Below, piece by piece: positions 4-8,322 of a DNA stretch of 59,167 nucleotides (the first letter of the stretch is position 1; every line of letters begins with the position of its first letter). The notes beneath the pieces are model-generated. The model had not been told where the DNA came from. It worked only from the letters and a program-made list of their open reading frames with translations, and searched no databases. The stretch is from Holdemania massiliensis AP2 (GTDB lineage: Bacteria; Bacillota_I; Bacilli_A; Erysipelotrichales; Erysipelotrichaceae). Location: NCBI RefSeq assembly GCF_000327285.1, contig NZ_HE998567.1, forward strand, positions 1,017,594 through 1,076,760, given 5' to 3'. The position numbers and the translations under genes were made by a program.

Positions 4-34
4 AAACAAAAGAAAAACCGGATTGCTCCGGTTT
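4..34 (-). terminator. Intrinsic terminator of degV
   Basis: An 8-bp perfect stem (15-22 with 27-34, loop TTGC) is followed on the minus strand by a T-rich tail. It overlaps the degV stop codon by two bases and ends that transcript. Confidence 0.85.
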
Positions 35-872
35 AGAATTTCAATTTTTTTACGCGCCCGTAGCCTAACGTCCGCGGTCCAGTATGCGCCATGATAATCG
101 GTCCCATGGCATGTATCGTTACCGGCTGACCAATGCGTTCTTCCATTTGCTGCTTTAACTCTTCAGCTTCTTCTTTCATGTCCGCCTCGACGATCATCCA
201 TTCATATTCGTTGGGATCATCAACTTGGGCAATGGCATCCAGTCCCACTTGATAAGCTTTTTTTACCGTCCGAACTTTGCCAAGAACATCAATGCCGCCG
301 TGTTCCACTTTCAGGATTGGAACAATCTTTAAAAGATTACCCAAAGCGGCAGCCGCTGCGGATATCCGTCCGCCTCGTTTCAGATATTCCAGCTTCTCAG
401 GAATTAAGGCAGCCCACAGCTCAGCCTCTGCTTCAATCTTATTCTTGATTTCTTCGCAGCCATGTCCTGCCTGGATTTGATCCTGTGCCCATTGGCACAA
501 CCAGGCTAACGGATAACAAGCAAAGCGGGCATCGACAACGGTAACCCGTCCTTCAAAGGCCGCCGATGCAGTCAAGGCAGACTGATAAGATCCGCTTAAG
601 CCTGAAGAAAGTGGAATATAAAGAATTTCATCATATTCCTTTAATAAATCGCTCCATTGCTGGATCAGTTTGCCCAAATGCGCCTGAGACGTTTTCACGA
701 TGGCACCTTGTTCCATCTTTCGGATAAACTCTGGTGTCTTGATCTCCATTTCTTCAATGTATTCCTGACCGTCGATCATCAGCGGGAAACGCATCACGGC
801 CAATTTCATTGATTCAGCCTGCTGAGTATTAATATCAGCGGATGAATCTGTCATTACTGCAATTTTTGGCAT
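33..872 (-). CDS. DegV family fatty-acid-binding protein
   Basis: About 279 aa. The N-terminal pattern KIAVMTDSSADI and the inner SSGLSGSYQSA stretch are typical of DegV/FakB proteins, which bind an acyl chain and present it to a fatty-acid kinase for phosphorylation, feeding exogenous fatty acids to phospholipid synthesis in the cytosol. The open frame extends upstream to 911, but the ATG at 872 is chosen because AGGTG lies seven bases before it and family members begin with this PKI-type strand. Monocistronic, with its own terminator. The family is certain; which FakB type, or which lipid, cannot be read from sequence. Confidence 0.9.
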   Translation of the reverse strand: MPKIAVMTDSSADINTQQAESMKLAVMRFPLMIDGQEYIEEMEIKTPEFIRKMEQGAIVKTSQAHLGKLIQQWSDLLKEYDEILYIPLSSGLSGSYQSALTASAAFEGRVTVVDARFACYPLAWLCQWAQDQIQAGHGCEEIKNKIEAEAELWAALIPEKLEYLKRGGRISAAAAALGNLLKIVPILKVEHGGIDVLGKVRTVKKAYQVGLDAIAQVDDPNEYEWMIVEADMKEEAEELKQQMEERIGQPVTIHAMGPIIMAHTGPRTLGYGRVKKLKF

Positions 873-1012
873 CTTTTTCACCTCGTGCTTTACAATTATA
901 CCATAAGACATTCTAGGGCAGGGAAGACTTTTCTAAGTTTCCCCGGTTCTTTCAAATTTATTAGACAAATCTTTCAAATTGCCTAGTTCTTAGAAAAATA
1001 GCATTTTAAGAA

Positions 1013-1052: not shown

Positions 1053-1130
1053 TGGGGCGATCGACGAGACTCGAACTCGCGAATGCTGGAGCCACAATCC
1101 AGAGTGTTAACCAACTTCACCACGACCGCC
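1053..1130 (-). tRNA. tRNA-His (anticodon GTG)
   Basis: Reading the minus strand gives a cloverleaf with anticodon loop TTGTGGC (GTG, His) and TTCGAGT in the T loop. The acceptor stem has eight pairs: an extra 5' G (G-1) faces C73, the identity mark of tRNA-His. CCA is encoded. Single-gene unit with its own promoter (1144-1172) and terminator. Confidence 0.96.
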
Positions 1131-1172: not shown

Positions 1173-1220
1173 GCATAAATTTAAAAAAAAGATAATTGTC
1201 TCAATTGAAAAGTTAAGCAA

Positions 1221-1273
1221 AAACAAAACAGCCGTCCGTTGTTCTGCATTGAGAACAAACGGACAGCTGTTTA
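1221..1273 (-). terminator. Terminator of the rnf operon
   Basis: A long stem, AACAGCTGTCCGTTTGTTCT paired with its near-complement at 1228-1245, is followed by TTTTG and more T on the minus strand. It closes the operon directly after rnfB, so no ferredoxin domain is co-transcribed downstream. Confidence 0.85.
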
Positions 1274-1274
1274 A

Positions 1275-1583
1275 CTAAGCTTTAATGTTAATTGTATTGC
1301 CGTCTGGGCCAGGTGTTGTCGTCAAATATTCAACGATCTTCGTCCGGGCATCCGGCTTGCTTGGCTTGCAGGCTGAAGCTGAGGCAACTTCACCGGCCAC
1401 CATGGCTTCCGCCATACCGGAACATCCGGCAAAGCCGCAGCTTCCGCAGTTGTAGCCTGGAAGCATGGCCGTTACCTTTTCAACGCGTTCATCGACTTCA
1501 ACTTTGAACACGTTGGAGGCAATCCCCAGAATCAAACCGAGAACGGCACCGACCACAAACATCATGATAATTGCTGTAATCAT
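1275..1583 (-). CDS. rnfB: Short RnfB: membrane anchor plus Fe-S domain only
   Basis: 102 aa. Residues 1-25 form one membrane helix. DERVEKVTAMLPGYNCGSCG and FAGC follow, giving a four-Cys Fe-S domain (Cys46, 49, 54, 72), the conserved N-terminal part of RnfB. Family members are usually about 190 to over 300 aa and carry two or more [4Fe-4S] ferredoxin-type repeats after this point. Here the frame stops and a strong terminator follows. In the known complex RnfB accepts electrons from ferredoxin at the membrane; without the ferredoxin repeats that entry route must differ or use a partner. The start overlaps the stop of the 61-aa gene by four bases (ATGA). No sign of a frameshifted remainder was seen before the terminator. 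Confidence 0.88.
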   Translation of the reverse strand: MITAIIMMFVVGAVLGLILGIASNVFKVEVDERVEKVTAMLPGYNCGSCGFAGCSGMAEAMVAGEVASASACKPSKPDARTKIVEYLTTTPGPDGNTINIKA

Positions 1584-1765
1584 TCTTTATTCTCTCCTTT
1601 TGATTGTTTCAACACAGGGTTGTGAGCGCAGGAAGTAATCTTGCAGCCCTCACACTCCGCCGTCAGATCCTCGCATCCCTCAGGTACCGGCGTTTTACTA
1701 TTCAGATAGTAGAACAGACCAAACAAAGCCCCCAGCCCCAACAAGACAAGGATTGCGATCATCAT
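1580..1765 (-). CDS. Small membrane-anchored Cys-rich protein in the rnf operon
   Basis: 61 aa, unnamed. Residues 2-21 are a membrane helix with a very short N-terminus. The following tail has four cysteines (31, 38, 41, 46) spaced C-x6-C-x2-C-x4-C and then a His, able to hold an Fe-S cluster or a metal. It starts three bases after the rnfA stop without a clear ribosome site and overlaps rnfB by four bases, so it is probably translated by coupling. Position between rnfA and a reduced rnfB suggests a redox partner of the complex; that is inference. It is not a canonical Rnf subunit. Confidence 0.75.
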   Translation of the reverse strand: MMIAILVLLGLGALFGLFYYLNSKTPVPEGCEDLTAECEGCKITSCAHNPVLKQSKGENKE

Positions 1766-1768
1766 CGA

Positions 1769-2344
1769 TTAAACCAGTCCGGCAAAACCGCTGAACGCCA
1801 GCGCCATCAGCGCAGCAACGATCAGAGCGATTGGATTGCCCTTGAATGAAACCGGGGAATCCGCCGCATCCAGGCGTTCCCGGATCGTGGAGAAGATGTA
1901 GAGAACCAACGTAAAGCCGATTGGGATGCCAATCGAATAGACCAGCATTTCAGGGAAAGTAAAACCCTGCTTAATGTTGTCCAATGCTACACCCAAAACA
2001 GCACAGTTCGTTGTGATCAGCGGCAGATAAATTCCCAACGACTTGTATAAAGCCGGAGAGAACTTCTTGATGAACATCTCAACAAACTGAACAAAGGAAG
2101 CAATGATCAGAATGAATGACAGCAGATCCATATATTCCAGCGAATTCGGTTGCAGAACCAGCTTGTACAAGCCATAGGTCAGAATTGAAGCACCGAAGAT
2201 AACAAAAGTTACCGCTGCGCCCATGCCGATTGCTGAGCTCTTGTTCTTGGAAACACCTAAGAATGGGCAGACCCCAAGAAACTGCGACAGAATGACGTTA
2301 TTGATCAGCACTGCCGAAATAAATAAAGTAAACAAGTTAGCCAT
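1769..2344 (-). CDS. rnfA: RnfA, membrane subunit of Rnf
   Basis: 191 aa, the usual RnfA length, with six membrane helices. The conserved INNVILSQFLGVCPFLGVSK near the N-terminus and TNCAVLGVAL near residue 110 hold the two cysteines that, with those of RnfE, bind the intramembrane [2Fe-2S] cluster in known Rnf/Nqr structures. RnfA and RnfE form the membrane gate that passes electrons across the bilayer. Two bases separate it from rnfE upstream. Confidence 0.95.
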   Translation of the reverse strand: MANLFTLFISAVLINNVILSQFLGVCPFLGVSKNKSSAIGMGAAVTFVIFGASILTYGLYKLVLQPNSLEYMDLLSFILIIASFVQFVEMFIKKFSPALYKSLGIYLPLITTNCAVLGVALDNIKQGFTFPEMLVYSIGIPIGFTLVLYIFSTIRERLDAADSPVSFKGNPIALIVAALMALAFSGFAGLV

Positions 2345-2346
2345 TG

Positions 2347-2997
2347 TTACTTAGCCTCCTTTTTCGCAGCCTTCGCCGCCTGGGCGTTTTTATACGCCGT
2401 CAATGCCGCCGCCAACACCGCAAAGGTCAGAAATGCGCCGGTTGGGGAACCAAACATCGAGATTGTGAAGCTTTCCGGAATCAAACGGACTTCAAAAATC
2501 AGCTGATTTGTGAATGGATTAGTAAAATTAATCAACCCTGTCGCAAGAATCTGACGGATCAGCGACATGACGATTAACGCACAGGTATAGCCTAAGCCCA
2601 TGCCCAGACCATCCAGGGCGGAATCTAGTACGCCGTTTTTACTGGCGAAAGCTTCTGCACGGCCAAGGATGATGCAGTTCACGACGATCAGCGGCAAAAA
2701 CAGACCTAACGCAGAGTCAATCGAAGGTGCATAAGCCTTGACTAAAAGTTCAATACTCTTAACCAGTGCCGCAATGACGACGATATAAACAGGAATTCGG
2801 ATCTCATCCGGAATAATCTTACGCATCAAAGAGATGATGACGTTGGACAGAATCAAAACGATAATAACGGAAACGCCCATGCCGATAGCATTATTGAGCG
2901 ATGTGGTGATGGCTAGTGTGGAACAGCATCCCAGATACAGCCCGAATACGGGATTTTCGCGGATGAAGCCCGCTGTAAAATTTTCTTTACGATTCAT
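2347..2997 (-). CDS. rnfE: RnfE, membrane subunit of Rnf
   Basis: 216 aa. The N-terminal segment IRENPVFGLYLGCCSTLAIT and the later LPLIVVNCIILGRAEAFASK are RnfE/NqrD signatures, with the cluster-binding cysteines. Six membrane helices. It is homologous to RnfA in inverted topology and shares its Fe-S cluster. The last residues are Ala/Lys-rich. The gene lies 12 bases after rnfG in a tightly packed operon. Confidence 0.95.
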   Translation of the reverse strand: MNRKENFTAGFIRENPVFGLYLGCCSTLAITTSLNNAIGMGVSVIIVLILSNVIISLMRKIIPDEIRIPVYIVVIAALVKSIELLVKAYAPSIDSALGLFLPLIVVNCIILGRAEAFASKNGVLDSALDGLGMGLGYTCALIVMSLIRQILATGLINFTNPFTNQLIFEVRLIPESFTISMFGSPTGAFLTFAVLAAALTAYKNAQAAKAAKKEAK

Positions 2998-3009
2998 TGT
3001 TCATCCACC

Positions 3010-4251
3010 TCATTTCTGGCTGGCCGCGAACGCCGCGCGGACAGCTTCAATTGCGGAATTGCTGGTGAAGGTCGCGCCGGATTTCACGTCAACCTTGGCA
3101 ATTTCATCCTCCGACTTCAAGCCGGCAAAACCTGCCAGATAGTCGTCGTTGACGGTATCGCCAACGCCTGGTGTATCGTTGAAAGCGGTCATCTTCACGC
3201 TGACAACTTCCTGCTTTTCGGTGTCAATTACAACTTCATATTCGTTATCACCCTGAAAACCTTTTGCTTTTACAGTATAGGTTTCAAGGGCGCCGTCAGC
3301 AGAAGTCAGCACAGCGGCATCCTCGCCCGCATTGTCAGCTCCGGCTGTCGGCTGATCAGCTTCCACAGTAAAGACGGCATTCCATGCCGCTTTGACAGCG
3401 TCAATCGCAGAATTGCTCGTATACGTAGCGCCGGATTTCACATCAACTGCACTGATCGCATCCGCGGTATTCAAGCCGGCAAAGCCTGCCAGATATTCAT
3501 CATTAACAACATCACCAACGCCTGGTGTATCATTAAACGTCGTCATGGCAACACTGAGGACTTCCTGGCTGTCCTTATCAATCACAACAGTATAAGTGTT
3601 GTTGCCCTGGAAGCCTTTTGCTTCCACGGTAACGGTAACCTGGCTGCCGTCTTCCTGCTGATCAAGAACCGTAGCGGATGAAGCTGGTGCTTCCGGTTCC
3701 TTCGTCGTTTCCGGAGCTGTCGGTGTGCTCGGTGCCGGAGCTGCATTGCCGCTTAAAGAAGCATAAACGGCTTTCGCTGCATCCAAGCCCTTAACCACGG
3801 CCGTTGAGGAAATCGTAGCGCCGGAAAGCGTATCGACCTTATCACCGGTCGTTTTGCCAATTACTGTATTTCGGAAATCATCTTCCGCTACACGGCTGCC
3901 GATTCCGGAGGTTTCCGAAATCGAAATTACATCATATCCTACAATTTTGGAATCATTATCGATGCCCAAAACAAACTTAATCGTATCTTTGAAACCAGAA
4001 GTTTCGACCTGGAACATATAACCTTGGCCTTCGGCCTGATAAACTCCAGTGACTAAGCCGGATTCATCCGTATACTCTGTCACTTCGGCATAGGTTGTGC
4101 CCGGGAATACTTTTTCCAGACTGCCCATCACTTCAGCCAAAGCATTGGCATTGATCTTAGCCGCGGTAACTTCATTGACTGCCGCCAATAAACCGCCCGC
4201 CAAGGCGCTGACAATGGCTAAGAAACAGGCCAGATATAAAGTTTTTTTCAT
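3010..4251 (-). CDS. rnfG: RnfG with three FMN-binding modules
   Basis: 413 aa, about twice the usual RnfG (near 190-220 aa). Residues 4-25 anchor it in the membrane; the rest should face outside. The first module (about 30-165) is the standard RnfG domain with flavinylation motif SGATIS (143-148). A Pro/Thr/Glu-rich linker (170-200) leads to a second FMN_bind module (203-293, SGATYT at 273-278). A second linker leads to a third (322-413, SGATFT at 391-396). In each motif the Thr is the residue to which ApbE attaches FMN in this family. The duplicated modules are alike in protein and DNA, so they arose by internal duplication. Up to three covalent FMN are predicted. Confidence 0.93.
   Translation of the reverse strand: MKKTLYLACFLAIVSALAGGLLAAVNEVTAAKINANALAEVMGSLEKVFPGTTYAEVTEYTDESGLVTGVYQAEGQGYMFQVETSGFKDTIKFVLGIDNDSKIVGYDVISISETSGIGSRVAEDDFRNTVIGKTTGDKVDTLSGATISSTAVVKGLDAAKAVYASLSGNAAPAPSTPTAPETTKEPEAPASSATVLDQQEDGSQVTVTVEAKGFQGNNTYTVVIDKDSQEVLSVAMTTFNDTPGVGDVVNDEYLAGFAGLNTADAISAVDVKSGATYTSNSAIDAVKAAWNAVFTVEADQPTAGADNAGEDAAVLTSADGALETYTVKAKGFQGDNEYEVVIDTEKQEVVSVKMTAFNDTPGVGDTVNDDYLAGFAGLKSEDEIAKVDVKSGATFTSNSAIEAVRAAFAASQK
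3013..3288 (-). repeat. FMN_bind module copy C (end of rnfG)
   Basis: Third FMN module of RnfG (residues 322-413). It shares long identical stretches with the copies at 3373-3645 and 4273-4539, including AFNDTPGVGD and NDDYLAGFAGL. Confidence 0.85.
3373..3645 (-). repeat. FMN_bind module copy B (middle of rnfG)
   Basis: Second FMN module of RnfG (residues 203-293), a diverged tandem copy of 3013-3288 with TFNDTPGVGD and NDEYLAGFAGL. Confidence 0.85.
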
Positions 4252-4263
4252 TTCTGACCCTCC

Positions 4264-5643
4264 TTAATTTCCGGCTGACAATGCCTGAAGCACTGCATCT
4301 TTAGCCGATTTGCTGGTATAAGTTGCACCGGATACGTTATCCACGGCATTGACATCCGCTTCACTCTTCGCTCCGACAAACTGGCTCAGGTATTCATCAT
4401 TCACACCATCACCAATGCCCGGCGTATCGTTGAATTCCGTCATCTTGACGCTGACAACTTCACCCTTGGCCGTATCGATAACCACTTCAAACTGGTTGTC
4501 ACCCTGGAAGCCATGCTGCGTTACATTGTACGTTGTTTCCGTACCGTTGGTTGCACCCGCTTCAGCTGAACCGGCAGCAACCGGCTTGATCGTGCTGCCG
4601 ACCAGCAGCGTAATCGCTAAGCCTGCAGCAAACAGAATCACCAGATTCCGGATATTCTTGGATTTCATCTTGATCTGCTGACCATCAGTTAAACTTTCAA
4701 TCCACGGCGTCAGCATGTTCATGATCAGAATTGAATACATAACACCTTCCGGCAGATTGGAACGCAGACGCAGCACAATCGTAATCACCGCGCAGCCGAT
4801 CGCAAACATAATCCGGCCGGCCGCACTGGTCGGATTGGTCACCGGATCGGTCATCATGAAGACAGCACCGAACATTGCACCACCCGTCAAAAGATGGAAC
4901 AGAGCATAGCTGATCGGAGCTCCGTGCATCATTCCGACGCCCGCTCCCAAAACAAACAGCGTAATCAAATAGGTTGCCGGCACACGCCAGTCAATAACCT
5001 TGCGGATTGCTAAGATCACACCGACGACCAGAATCACCAATGCGCTCGTTTCTCCGATCGCGCCCGGATACAGACCGACAAACATATTGCCCAAACCGCC
5101 AAACGGCTTCAGGAAGCTGCTCATGCCTTCGGCAGAATTAATGATCCAGTTCTGCGCCGCCATCGAAGAAGTCGGCGTCGCTCCGGTAACGATATCGGCT
5201 GTCGCAGCCCCTGCAAACGACGCAAAGATCGTTGCCCGGCCCACCGCCGCCGGATTGAAGATATTCTGTCCAAAACCGCCGAAGACCAGCTTGCCGAAGA
5301 AAATTGCGATCACGGTTGCCACCGCTAAGGCATAGTATTCAATCGACAGCGGACACATCATCGTTAAAATGATGGCAGTTACCCATGGATAAGAATTTTT
5401 TAAGCTGTTCAGGATGTCCTTTTTAGTAAAGACACACCACAGAATCTCCGTACCGCAGGCACTGATAATCGCCGTGATCATCAGCAGAATTGCCCGCAAG
5501 CCGTAAGATGCTGAAAAATTGCTGAAATAGTAATACAGTGAAAATGCAAATACCGCCAACAGCCCCAAGGTCAGCTCGCCCATGATCCGGCCGGTGCTCT
5601 GACCATCACGATAGTTCGGGGACGGTTTAAAATTAAATTTCAT
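4264..5643 (-). CDS. rnfD: RnfD fused to an extra FMN-binding domain
   Basis: 459 aa, against about 310-350 in typical RnfD. Residues 1-322 are the polytopic RnfD core: N-terminal SPNYRDGQSTG, FGGFGQNIFNPAAVGRA, its own flavinylation motif TGATPT (153-158) and MMTDPVTNPTSAAGR. An added membrane helix (331-350) and a short linker lead to a complete FMN_bind domain (about 369-457) with SGATYT at 438-443, very like those of RnfG. The fused domain should lie outside the membrane beside RnfG. Two covalent flavins are therefore predicted on this subunit. The fusion is one open frame with no sign of error. Confidence 0.93.
   Translation of the reverse strand: MKFNFKPSPNYRDGQSTGRIMGELTLGLLAVFAFSLYYYFSNFSASYGLRAILLMITAIISACGTEILWCVFTKKDILNSLKNSYPWVTAIILTMMCPLSIEYYALAVATVIAIFFGKLVFGGFGQNIFNPAAVGRATIFASFAGAATADIVTGATPTSSMAAQNWIINSAEGMSSFLKPFGGLGNMFVGLYPGAIGETSALVILVVGVILAIRKVIDWRVPATYLITLFVLGAGVGMMHGAPISYALFHLLTGGAMFGAVFMMTDPVTNPTSAAGRIMFAIGCAVITIVLRLRSNLPEGVMYSILIMNMLTPWIESLTDGQQIKMKSKNIRNLVILFAAGLAITLLVGSTIKPVAAGSAEAGATNGTETTYNVTQHGFQGDNQFEVVIDTAKGEVVSVKMTEFNDTPGIGDGVNDEYLSQFVGAKSEADVNAVDNVSGATYTSKSAKDAVLQALSAGN
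4273..4539 (-). repeat. FMN_bind module copy A (C-terminus of rnfD)
   Basis: Module homologous to the two rnfG copies, with EFNDTPGIGD and NDEYLSQFVGA. Its presence in a neighbouring gene implies copying of the module between rnfG and rnfD. Confidence 0.85.
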
Positions 5644-5657
5644 ACAAACTCCCCTCC

Positions 5658-6953
5658 TTATTTCTTAGCGCGCAGAGCCATGTAGCGCTTCGCTCTCCGG
5701 ACGCCTTCAGTGACGTCGATTTTCGACGGGCAGACAAAGCTGCACATGCCGCATTCAATGCAGTCCATGATGCTCAATTTTTCCAACATCGCCACATTCT
5801 TGGACTTTTCCGCCTGATTGATCCGCACCGGCTGCAATCCGGCCGGACAGTGATCTGAACAGCGTCCGCAGCGCAGACAGGCAACCTGATTGACCGGCTT
5901 GTTTTTCAAGACTGTCAAGGCGTTGCTGTACGGCGTGATGACAAACTGATCGGTTGTGATCGTCTTGCCCATCATCGGACCGCCCGCGATCAGCAGCACA
6001 TCTTCCGCACTGTATCCGCCGCAGGCTGCGATGACATCGGCCGCTTTCACGCCCACCGGAACCAGTACGTTGGCCGGCGTATTGACGCCGTCACCGCTGA
6101 CCGTCACATATTTGTGAGTGATCGGCATGCCCTTGCTCAAAGCCTGACCGAAAGCGATCGCCGTCGTCGCATTGTTGACGATGACTCCAACTTCACCCGG
6201 CAGCTTTTCATAACGCTTCTTGGTAATTTCGTACACCAGCGTCCGTTCCCAGCCCATCGGATAAACATCCGGAACTTCCTTGACATTGATGTTGCTGTAA
6301 TCCTTAAAGGCTTCGACAACGGTTGGAATGAAATCCTTCTTTGTCGTCTTGATCGCGATGGCCGCTTCCTTGGCACCTGACATTTTTAACATCGCTGCTA
6401 CGCCAGTAACCAGATCCTGCATATTCAGGCTGGTGTTCTTATAATCCGCCGTAATGTACGGTTCGCATTCGACCGCGTTAATGATCAGCAGATCAATGCC
6501 CTTGCAGCCTCTGTACTTGATATAGCTTGGAAAACCTGCGCCGCCGCAGCCGACGATGCCGGCATTCATCATGAAGGTAACTAATTCCTCCTGCGTTGCC
6601 GTTTGATAGTTCAATGTGCCGAATGGCTGTTCCTCTTCGTTTTTGCCATCATTTTCAATGACAAGATGATCGACCGGCCGCAGGCCAGCATGCATCATTT
6701 TCTGGATGCCTTTGACCGTACCGGATACAGATGAAAAGTAAGGAACTGTAAAATGATCATTCCGCTTGGCGATCATTGTTCCGACTTTTACACTGTCACC
6801 TTCCTTAACCAACACTTCAACCGCTGTTGAATTACCGTTAATTAAAGGAATGTATACAAGGCTGCCCGCTTCAACCTTGACAAGCTCGGTATGACTTGTA
6901 AGCTCTTTGTGACCATCCAGATGCTTGCGCATCGGTCCCGTTAATAGTGACAT
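5658..6953 (-). CDS. rnfC: RnfC, NADH-binding subunit of Rnf
   Basis: 431 aa from the ATG at 6953, chosen because GAGGTGG lies six bases upstream; a GTG at 6962 is in frame but sits within that ribosome site. The N-terminal barrel-sandwich part is followed by GCGGAGFPSYIK, the flavin/NADH-binding loop, and VECEPYITADY. Two [4Fe-4S] motifs lie near the C-terminus, CLRCGRCSDHCP and CIECGMCSFVCP. RnfC is the cytosolic subunit that exchanges electrons with NAD(H). First gene of the operon, 14 bases before rnfD. Confidence 0.95.
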   Translation of the reverse strand: MSLLTGPMRKHLDGHKELTSHTELVKVEAGSLVYIPLINGNSTAVEVLVKEGDSVKVGTMIAKRNDHFTVPYFSSVSGTVKGIQKMMHAGLRPVDHLVIENDGKNEEEQPFGTLNYQTATQEELVTFMMNAGIVGCGGAGFPSYIKYRGCKGIDLLIINAVECEPYITADYKNTSLNMQDLVTGVAAMLKMSGAKEAAIAIKTTKKDFIPTVVEAFKDYSNINVKEVPDVYPMGWERTLVYEITKKRYEKLPGEVGVIVNNATTAIAFGQALSKGMPITHKYVTVSGDGVNTPANVLVPVGVKAADVIAACGGYSAEDVLLIAGGPMMGKTITTDQFVITPYSNALTVLKNKPVNQVACLRCGRCSDHCPAGLQPVRINQAEKSKNVAMLEKLSIMDCIECGMCSFVCPSKIDVTEGVRRAKRYMALRAKK

Positions 6954-7001
6954 TCCGTCCACCTCTTCCTTTCCTCAAATACCGAAAGCTTTGGCAAACA
7001 C

Positions 7002-7053: not shown

Positions 7054-7082
7054 ATTATAGCATTATCGCTATTAATTTTAAA
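7054..7082 (-). promoter_or_regulatory. Predicted promoter of the rnf operon
   Basis: Minus-strand TATAAT (7054-7059) lies 17 bp after TTTAAA (7077-7082), about 100 bases before rnfC. Confidence 0.55.
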
Positions 7083-7152
7083 CGTTTTTTCCCTATCTAT
7101 TTAATGAAATTTTAAGTTTTTTCACGATATCCCGGCTTTGAAAATGTTTCCT

Positions 7153-7181
7153 TTGGGTAGTATCGCTCTGCGTTTTATGCT
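7153..7181 (+). promoter_or_regulatory. Predicted promoter of apbE
   Basis: TTGGGT (7153-7158) and TATGCT (7176-7181) with 17 bp between, 22 bases before the apbE ATG. It falls inside the upstream extension of the open frame, supporting the later start. Confidence 0.45.
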
Positions 7182-7203
7182 AAAATCATCACGGGTGATT
7201 CAA

Positions 7204-8322
7204 ATGAATAAAAAATGGATGCCGCTGGCATTCTGCGGCCTATTGATGTTAGGCGGCTGTCAGAGCCGGCCCAAGGAGCCGGAACTGACGCGTTATTCCA
7301 ACATGGCGCTGGACGCCGGTTTTGATACGGTCATGACGTTGACCGGATATACGGAAACAGAAGATCAGTTCAATCAGTATTTCGCTGAAATGAAGCAGCT
7401 GTTTCTGCACTACAACGCACTGTTTGACGTGTATAACGATTACGCTGGACTCAACAATATCAAAACGATCAACGACAACGCCGGCATTGCCCCGGTCAGT
7501 GTGGATCCTGAGATCATCGAGCTGTTAAATACCGCGCGGCAGTTCTACGACCTGTCTGAGGGCGAGTTTGACGTCACAATGGGCGCCGTGCTCAAAATCT
7601 GGCATACCTATCGGGATGAAGGCATCGCACAAAACAACGCCGGACAGCTGGGACAGGTTCCTTCCGTTGAGCAGCTGCAGGAGGCGCAAGCCTGTACAGG
7701 ATGGGATAAAGTTGAAATCAACGAAGCGGACAGTACGGTCTATCTGAATCAAAGCTGCGCTTCGCTGGACGTCGGCGGGATTGCCAAAGGCTTCGCCGCC
7801 GGCAAGGTACAGCAGCGCTTAATTGAAGCGGGTTTAGTCCACGGTACCGTGGATGCCGGAGGCAACATCTGTACGATCAACAACAAGCCGGGCAATCAGG
7901 ACTGGCGCGTCGGCATCCGCAATCCATCCGGCAACGGCTCGCTGGCAATCGTTGAGCTTCCAGGCTCCGCAGCCTTCGTATCCAGCGGAGATTATGAACG
8001 CTTCTACGCGGCTGAAGACGGCAGCGTCTATCATCACATCATCGATCCGCAGACGCTCTTTCCTGCAACTTATTACCATCAGGTCACGATCATCACGGAG
8101 AATTCCGGATTTGCGGATGCCTTGTCCACCGCTTTGTTTACCATGAGCTACCAGGACGGGCTGGCCTTGATCGAACGATTCCGCAACACCTATCCGGATC
8201 AGCCGATCGAAGTCATGTGGGTGATGGATCCCGATCAGGTGCCATCCGGAGTAACCAGCACAGCCGCGGGCGAATATGCCGTGATCATGACGGACTCGAT
8301 GAAGAACTATCTGGCTCAGTAA
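7204..8322 (+). CDS. apbE: ApbE, FAD:protein FMN transferase (lipoprotein)
   Basis: 372 aa from the ATG at 7204 (GGGTGATT upstream). A lipoprotein signal with lipobox LGGC places it on the outer face of the membrane. Family landmarks follow: LDVGGIAKGFAAGKV and DAGGN in the flavin site, HHIIDP, and DALSTALFTMS, where the Asp and Thr bind Mg. ApbE transfers FMN from FAD to Thr of SGAT-type motifs. It is divergent from the rnf operon, whose RnfG and RnfD hold five such motifs, so it is the obvious maturation enzyme. An intrinsic terminator follows. Confidence 0.95.
   Translation: MNKKWMPLAFCGLLMLGGCQSRPKEPELTRYSNMALDAGFDTVMTLTGYTETEDQFNQYFAEMKQLFLHYNALFDVYNDYAGLNNIKTINDNAGIAPVSVDPEIIELLNTARQFYDLSEGEFDVTMGAVLKIWHTYRDEGIAQNNAGQLGQVPSVEQLQEAQACTGWDKVEINEADSTVYLNQSCASLDVGGIAKGFAAGKVQQRLIEAGLVHGTVDAGGNICTINNKPGNQDWRVGIRNPSGNGSLAIVELPGSAAFVSSGDYERFYAAEDGSVYHHIIDPQTLFPATYYHQVTIITENSGFADALSTALFTMSYQDGLALIERFRNTYPDQPIEVMWVMDPDQVPSGVTSTAAGEYAVIMTDSMKNYLAQ

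Follow-up and report, generated by a model that had tools for sequence, protein, structure and literature searches.

The RNF complex is one of the main energy-conserving enzymes in anaerobes. The ferredoxin domains of its subunit RnfB are the usual electron acceptors (PMC12174285). As additional products of rnf operons RnfH, RnfX, RnfY and endonuclease III were described, and for NQR the protein NqrM (PMC12174285 among other sources). RnfH is a subunit of A. vinelandii Rnf1 and occurs as an extra small product of some rnf operons (PMC12174285). NqrM (DUF539, PF04400) is thought to supply the iron for the [2Fe-2S] cluster between NqrD and NqrE, which are homologues of RnfE and RnfA, respectively (PMC12174285, PMC6209661). 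A review names a cluster-insertion factor, i.e., NqrM, for NQR only and gives no account of cluster insertion into RNF (PMC12174285). Finally, the FeoB-associated Cys-rich proteins of PF12669 have Cys motifs of a type that has been connected with iron binding (PMC8749426).

The window analysed here, a stretch of 59,167 nucleotides from Holdemania massiliensis AP2, encodes an rnf operon in which rnfC, rnfD, rnfG, rnfE and rnfA are all present and in order, as judged by Pfam and NCBIfam. Between rnfA and rnfB lies an additional small ORF. The features of this region are as follows:
33-911, minus strand: DegV-family gene, downstream of the rnf operon
1053-1129, minus strand: tRNA-His(gtg), downstream of the rnf operon
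1220-1275, minus strand: strong hairpin with T-rich stretch directly behind rnfB, probably the terminator of the operon (RNA fold -32.4 kcal/mol, z -6.65)
1275-1583, minus strand: rnfB, short, 102 aa, with a TM helix and one FeS domain (PF04060), without ferredoxin domains (Pfam/NCBIfam)
1580-1765, minus strand: small ORF of 61 aa with ATG start; one N-terminal helix, then a Cys tail
1769-2344, minus strand: rnfA (TIGR01943, E 4e-74)
2347-2997, minus strand: rnfE (TIGR01948, E 1.5e-63)
3010-4251, minus strand: rnfG with three FMN-binding stretches (PF04205 three times; TIGR01947)
4264-5643, minus strand: rnfD with an extra C-terminal FMN-binding domain (PF03116 and PF04205)
5658-6962, minus strand: rnfC, first gene of the operon (TIGR01945, E 9e-103)
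7054-7082, minus strand: promoter-like site upstream of rnfC with extended -10 (consensus match only)
7138-8322, plus strand: apbE, flavin transferase gene, divergent from rnfC (PF02424, E 2e-68)

The small ORF starts after a gap of 3 nt behind rnfA, and its stop codon overlaps the rnfB start as ATGA. As a terminator-like hairpin follows rnfB and a promoter-like site precedes rnfC, it is part of one probable transcript. According to the literature, ApbE flavinylates RnfG and RnfD. With three FMN-binding stretches in RnfG and the extra C-terminal FMN domain in RnfD, the complex is a multi-flavinylated Rnf, a type proposed for extra extracytosolic electron transfer (PMC8238504).

A preceding sequence-only reading had described the product as a one-helix protein with the pattern C-x6-C-x2-C-x4-C, and this was confirmed on the sequence: the residues are C31, C38, C41 and C46, located behind a single hydrophobic helix. 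That reading had made its case depend on conservation of the frame and of the Cys residues in relatives, and both are kept. The ORF differs from that of another Holdemania (L053) by 14 synonymous and two non-synonymous codon changes (4/0/14 differences at the three codon positions), the protein is 98% identical to its H. filiformis counterpart, and N22, T25, P28, G30, C31, C38, C41 and C46 are kept in 42 diverse homologues. Matches with E up to 1, most of them far lower, were obtained in 151 of 196 genomes of the order, and homologues are found across the Erysipelotrichales and the GTDB class Bacilli. All 79 loci that a strict motif picked up within this order have the arrangement rnfA-small gene-rnfB, with a short rnfB. 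The small ORF is thus a real, widely conserved gene under purifying selection. It is short and has no match in curated families, as a spurious or non-functional ORF adjoining rnfB might; in view of the purifying selection and of the conservation across a class and in a second phylum this explanation has a negligible probability. Long frames had pointed to a possible fusion of the small protein with a neighbouring one, but they arose artificially, when the frame was extended upstream or a stop was read through. One match (G247) was a false positive, and a plasmid search gave no match.

When the alignment was widened to 53 sequences, P28, C38, C41 and C46 alone were invariant. Of the four-Cys motif proposed earlier the three last Cys residues stand, while C31 varies among the wider relatives, which reduces the core to C-x2-C-x4-C and makes the first Cys dispensable; the protein also carries the motif N-x2-T-P-x-P. 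AlphaFold predicts a confident helix for residues 2-23 only, and the tail is modelled with low confidence (pLDDT about 43-79). Lys and Arg are commoner after the helix in 51 of the 53 members and commoner before it in none. Judged by this excess of positive charges behind the helix, the protein should have one N-out helix that places the Cys tail on the cytoplasmic side, where RnfB too has its Cys residues.

The window protein matches no Pfam family and only one NCBIfam model, insignificantly; the family profile matched no homologous chain in the PDB, and no paper linking Rnf to such a small Cys protein was found in the literature. Together with its difference from the described extra products, this agrees with the earlier statement that it is no known Rnf subunit, a conclusion that is supported by these sequence comparisons. 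RnfH, a beta-grasp protein without cofactor, bears no resemblance to it. The N-terminal domain of RnfB (PF04060) is similar in that one helix, oriented in the same way, precedes a Cys-x2-Cys-x4-Cys stretch, whereas its fourth Cys lies about 16 residues further on and the domain is folded. NqrM, with a Cys pattern of its own, is alike in architecture only, as a small one-helix membrane protein that has conserved Cys residues and is encoded with its complex. An identity with NqrM was rejected, as PF04400 does not match the window protein and is not listed for its relatives. The PF04400 profile gave nothing above the cut-off in the own genome and 27 others, including NQR-bearing ones. Moreover, the small gene is tied to RNF with short RnfB and not to NQR, and the sampled NQR-only Bacilli have neither protein.

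Another family compared is PF12669. The window protein does not match it at E 10, while 24 of the 53 relatives do (best E 1.2e-4). Profile-profile comparison with PF12669 proteins of the same class gave 93.3%, 30 column-shuffled controls reaching at most 16.4%, and the comparison with the RnfB helix and FeS domain gave 58%. These profile scores point to a weak but controlled distant link to the FeoB-associated proteins; for the window protein it stays below the Pfam cut-off, by which the small protein is not a member, and it is weakened by the shortness of the two families, each of which has a single helix and a CxxC. Both share one N-terminal helix and a Cys-rich tail, but the small protein has N-x2-T-P-x-P and C-x2-C-x4-C and is rnf-encoded. 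True PF12669 proteins occur separately in the window's genome: on contig 4 (G000, L293) two such Cys-rich one-helix proteins lie close together, apart from the Rnf one. No feoB was recognised among the listed neighbours of the small gene. The distant link, the small size with one helix and the low-confidence tail would all be compatible with a non-redox assembly or stability factor, the helix of which packs on RnfA/E or RnfB, with the Cys tail as redox or iron sensor or as structural zinc site controlling assembly, comparable to FeoC-like elements of FeoB. However, three Cys and one Pro are strictly conserved in otherwise divergent sequences, which argues for chemistry more than for packing, and we regard such a factor as rather improbable.

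The RnfB encoded next to the small gene can be aligned with no more than residues 8-88 of the structurally solved C. tetanomorphum RnfB (274 aa) and thus lacks the ferredoxin domains; of the C-terminal domains that serve as electron input none was detected in the window RnfB, in which only PF04060 was matched. The RnfB chains found in the PDB, with 174-333 aa, all exceed the window RnfB in length. A link between the small protein and a reduced RnfB had been suggested from this single locus, and it proved strong across genomes. The sample comprised 247 genomes of the GTDB class, some of them incomplete, and was tallied by reading match lists and fetched operons. The first profile found the small gene in 116 genomes and rnfA was found in 143; RnfB-like sequences occur in 168, a count that includes ferredoxin-like parts of hydrogenase-sized proteins. 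An Rnf with short RnfB is encoded in 128 genomes, and 120 of these have the small gene by profile (113 by the first, seven more by an improved profile). Five others contain shorter, divergent Cys-tail ORFs within the operon (L222, L224, L226, L227, L324), and the remaining three are a genome of 55% completeness (G230), one of 82% (G393) and one with a contig ending just upstream of rnfB (G402). In five genomes RnfB is full-length, with Fer4 domains and, in the complete sequences, 268-286 aa; there rnfB directly follows rnfA, and the profile search found the small gene nowhere in any of the five. It was likewise absent from the NQR-only genomes of the sample, and in the two NQR operons checked (L241, L242) NqrF occupies its position. 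Class genomes without Rnf, or with rnfA-like genes and no RnfB, lack it except for G364 and G381, which gave profile matches despite having no rnfA match. A Fisher test on the profile matches (120/8 versus 2/117) yields p ~1e-57, a value that ignores relatedness.

A Leptotrichiaceae MAG (L131) appearing in a motif scan led to a search in its phylum, where the small gene was found in four of 98 genomes; RnfB type was determined for these four. All four copies are part of an rnfCDGEA-small gene-rnfB unit with short RnfB (frames of 109-130 residues). In a tree of RnfA and RnfE one clade holds all operons with short RnfB, those from the second phylum among them, and neither the operons with full-length RnfB nor E. 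coli fall within it. The simplest reading is therefore that short RnfB and the small gene have a single joint origin and were kept together; the distribution data show long joint retention of both rather than repeated independent gain. Conservation, synteny and phyletic co-occurrence show that the small protein belongs specifically to the Rnf clade in which RnfB is short. The units of the second phylum are whole (L320, L321, L322, L323), and three of them were placed in the tree, where they fall within the Bacilli clade; a whole-operon transfer between the phyla is probable. Several genomes (G264, G240, G207; loci L228, L229, L232, L253, L334, L335) encode several Rnf operons of different types, and all that were checked have a short RnfB.

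From these data, the small protein probably supplies iron or an iron-sulphur cluster to Rnf, or relays electrons into it. The main rival to a role as donor or chaperone is that of an electron-entry subunit. Here, a stoichiometric redox subunit would hold an Fe-S cluster in its tail and thereby stand in for the lost ferredoxin domains: electrons would come from soluble ferredoxin and go on to the mobile [4Fe-4S] domain of the short RnfB. The missing ferredoxin arm of RnfB is the strongest argument for it; the near-perfect co-occurrence with RnfB lacking these domains, the translational coupling to rnfB in the window, the RnfB-like topology with cytoplasmic Cys residues and the occurrence of the entire unit in a second phylum also fit. 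On the other side, the first Cys is not conserved, in some lineages there is just a protein of 35-45 aa whose three or four Cys residues stand close together, and since short and long RnfB form separate clades the link may reflect shared ancestry. In addition, the gene often lies away from rnf or is present in fewer copies than Rnf operons, whereas the six known subunits stay together. Taken together, we consider this subunit unlikely. The broader idea of a redesigned electron entrance supposes that in this whole clade the absent multi-cluster ferredoxin arm of RnfB is replaced by a separate membrane-anchored mini-protein, which has a labile or permanent Fe-S cluster at its Cys tail and sometimes serves more than one complex; it appears to us similarly doubtful.

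One large subclade and several others in the tree have rnfA directly followed by short rnfB, with the small gene elsewhere, and in many distant lineages examined the gene is gone from the operon yet kept elsewhere in the genome. In L254-L258, L260, L174, L175, L181 and L194 separate copies share a conserved neighbourhood: a dCMP deaminase gene comes right behind them, and in front there is often a ThiF/TcdA-like gene or aspS. Other neighbours of separate copies are presumably htpG, pyruvate dehydrogenase and phosphoglucomutase genes; these names, like aspS, come from reading the sequences. In L182, L188 and L189 copies or relatives lie among genes that we take, again by reading, to be for copper handling (copA-, copZ- and csoR-like), hinting at metal handling for these few copies outside rnf. 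As for numbers, three genomes (G229, G218, G313) have two short-RnfB operons each and one detected small gene, and a fourth (G207) has three such operons and two small genes. As expected of an Rnf subunit, the gene is conserved with the complex; it is not always in the operon and not always present once per complex. A fixed subunit is expected to stay with the other six, whereas a factor acting in trans need not, so the copies outside the operon fit the latter. The label "subunit" used in the sequence-only reading is therefore not retained: with the gene often away from rnf, at times fewer copies than operons and one Cys dispensable, a trans-acting metal-handling or assembly factor would explain the sequence data at least as well as a cluster-bearing structural subunit.

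We favour an iron or Fe-S cluster donor or chaperone for the Rnf with short RnfB because of the separate gene locations, the sharing between complexes, the three invariant Cys residues and the PF12669 link; we see about an even chance for this role, and we infer metal binding, donor function and client alike. Fe2+ or a labile cluster would be bound at the membrane by the three invariant Cys residues, which most Rnf-operon copies assist with the fourth Cys and nearby His residues, and the iron or cluster would be handed to the Rnf complex during assembly. Fe-S carriers such as IscU and SufA have three Cys, unlike electron-transfer clusters, and three invariant Cys residues are in this respect carrier-like. 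The small protein may thereby be the RNF counterpart of NqrM by function, not by descent.

Two recipients may be considered, the [4Fe-4S] domain of the short RnfB and an intramembrane [2Fe-2S] site, which lies between RnfA and RnfE. The Cys residues of the latter are conserved in short- and long-RnfB types alike, so there is no covariation of the small gene with this site, and the site does not explain why a single clade needs the gene. If it were the client, genomes with full-length RnfB and with NQR should need the small gene too, and they lack it, although both are separate lineages from the Rnf with short RnfB. The client may be either RnfB itself or another part of the short-RnfB Rnf lineage.

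The small gene marks an Rnf clade with stripped-down RnfB that is common in gut Erysipelotrichales, and it is a target for studying either the supply of Fe-S clusters to Rnf or the way in which ferredoxin passes on electrons when there is no docking domain. Heterologous expression of an Rnf with short RnfB may fail without it. A further RnfB variant of about 190 aa is encoded at L189:4625-5188 (minus strand) and L212:2952-3536 (minus strand), the C terminus of which resembles a second FeS domain of the N-terminal type in place of the ferredoxin domains.
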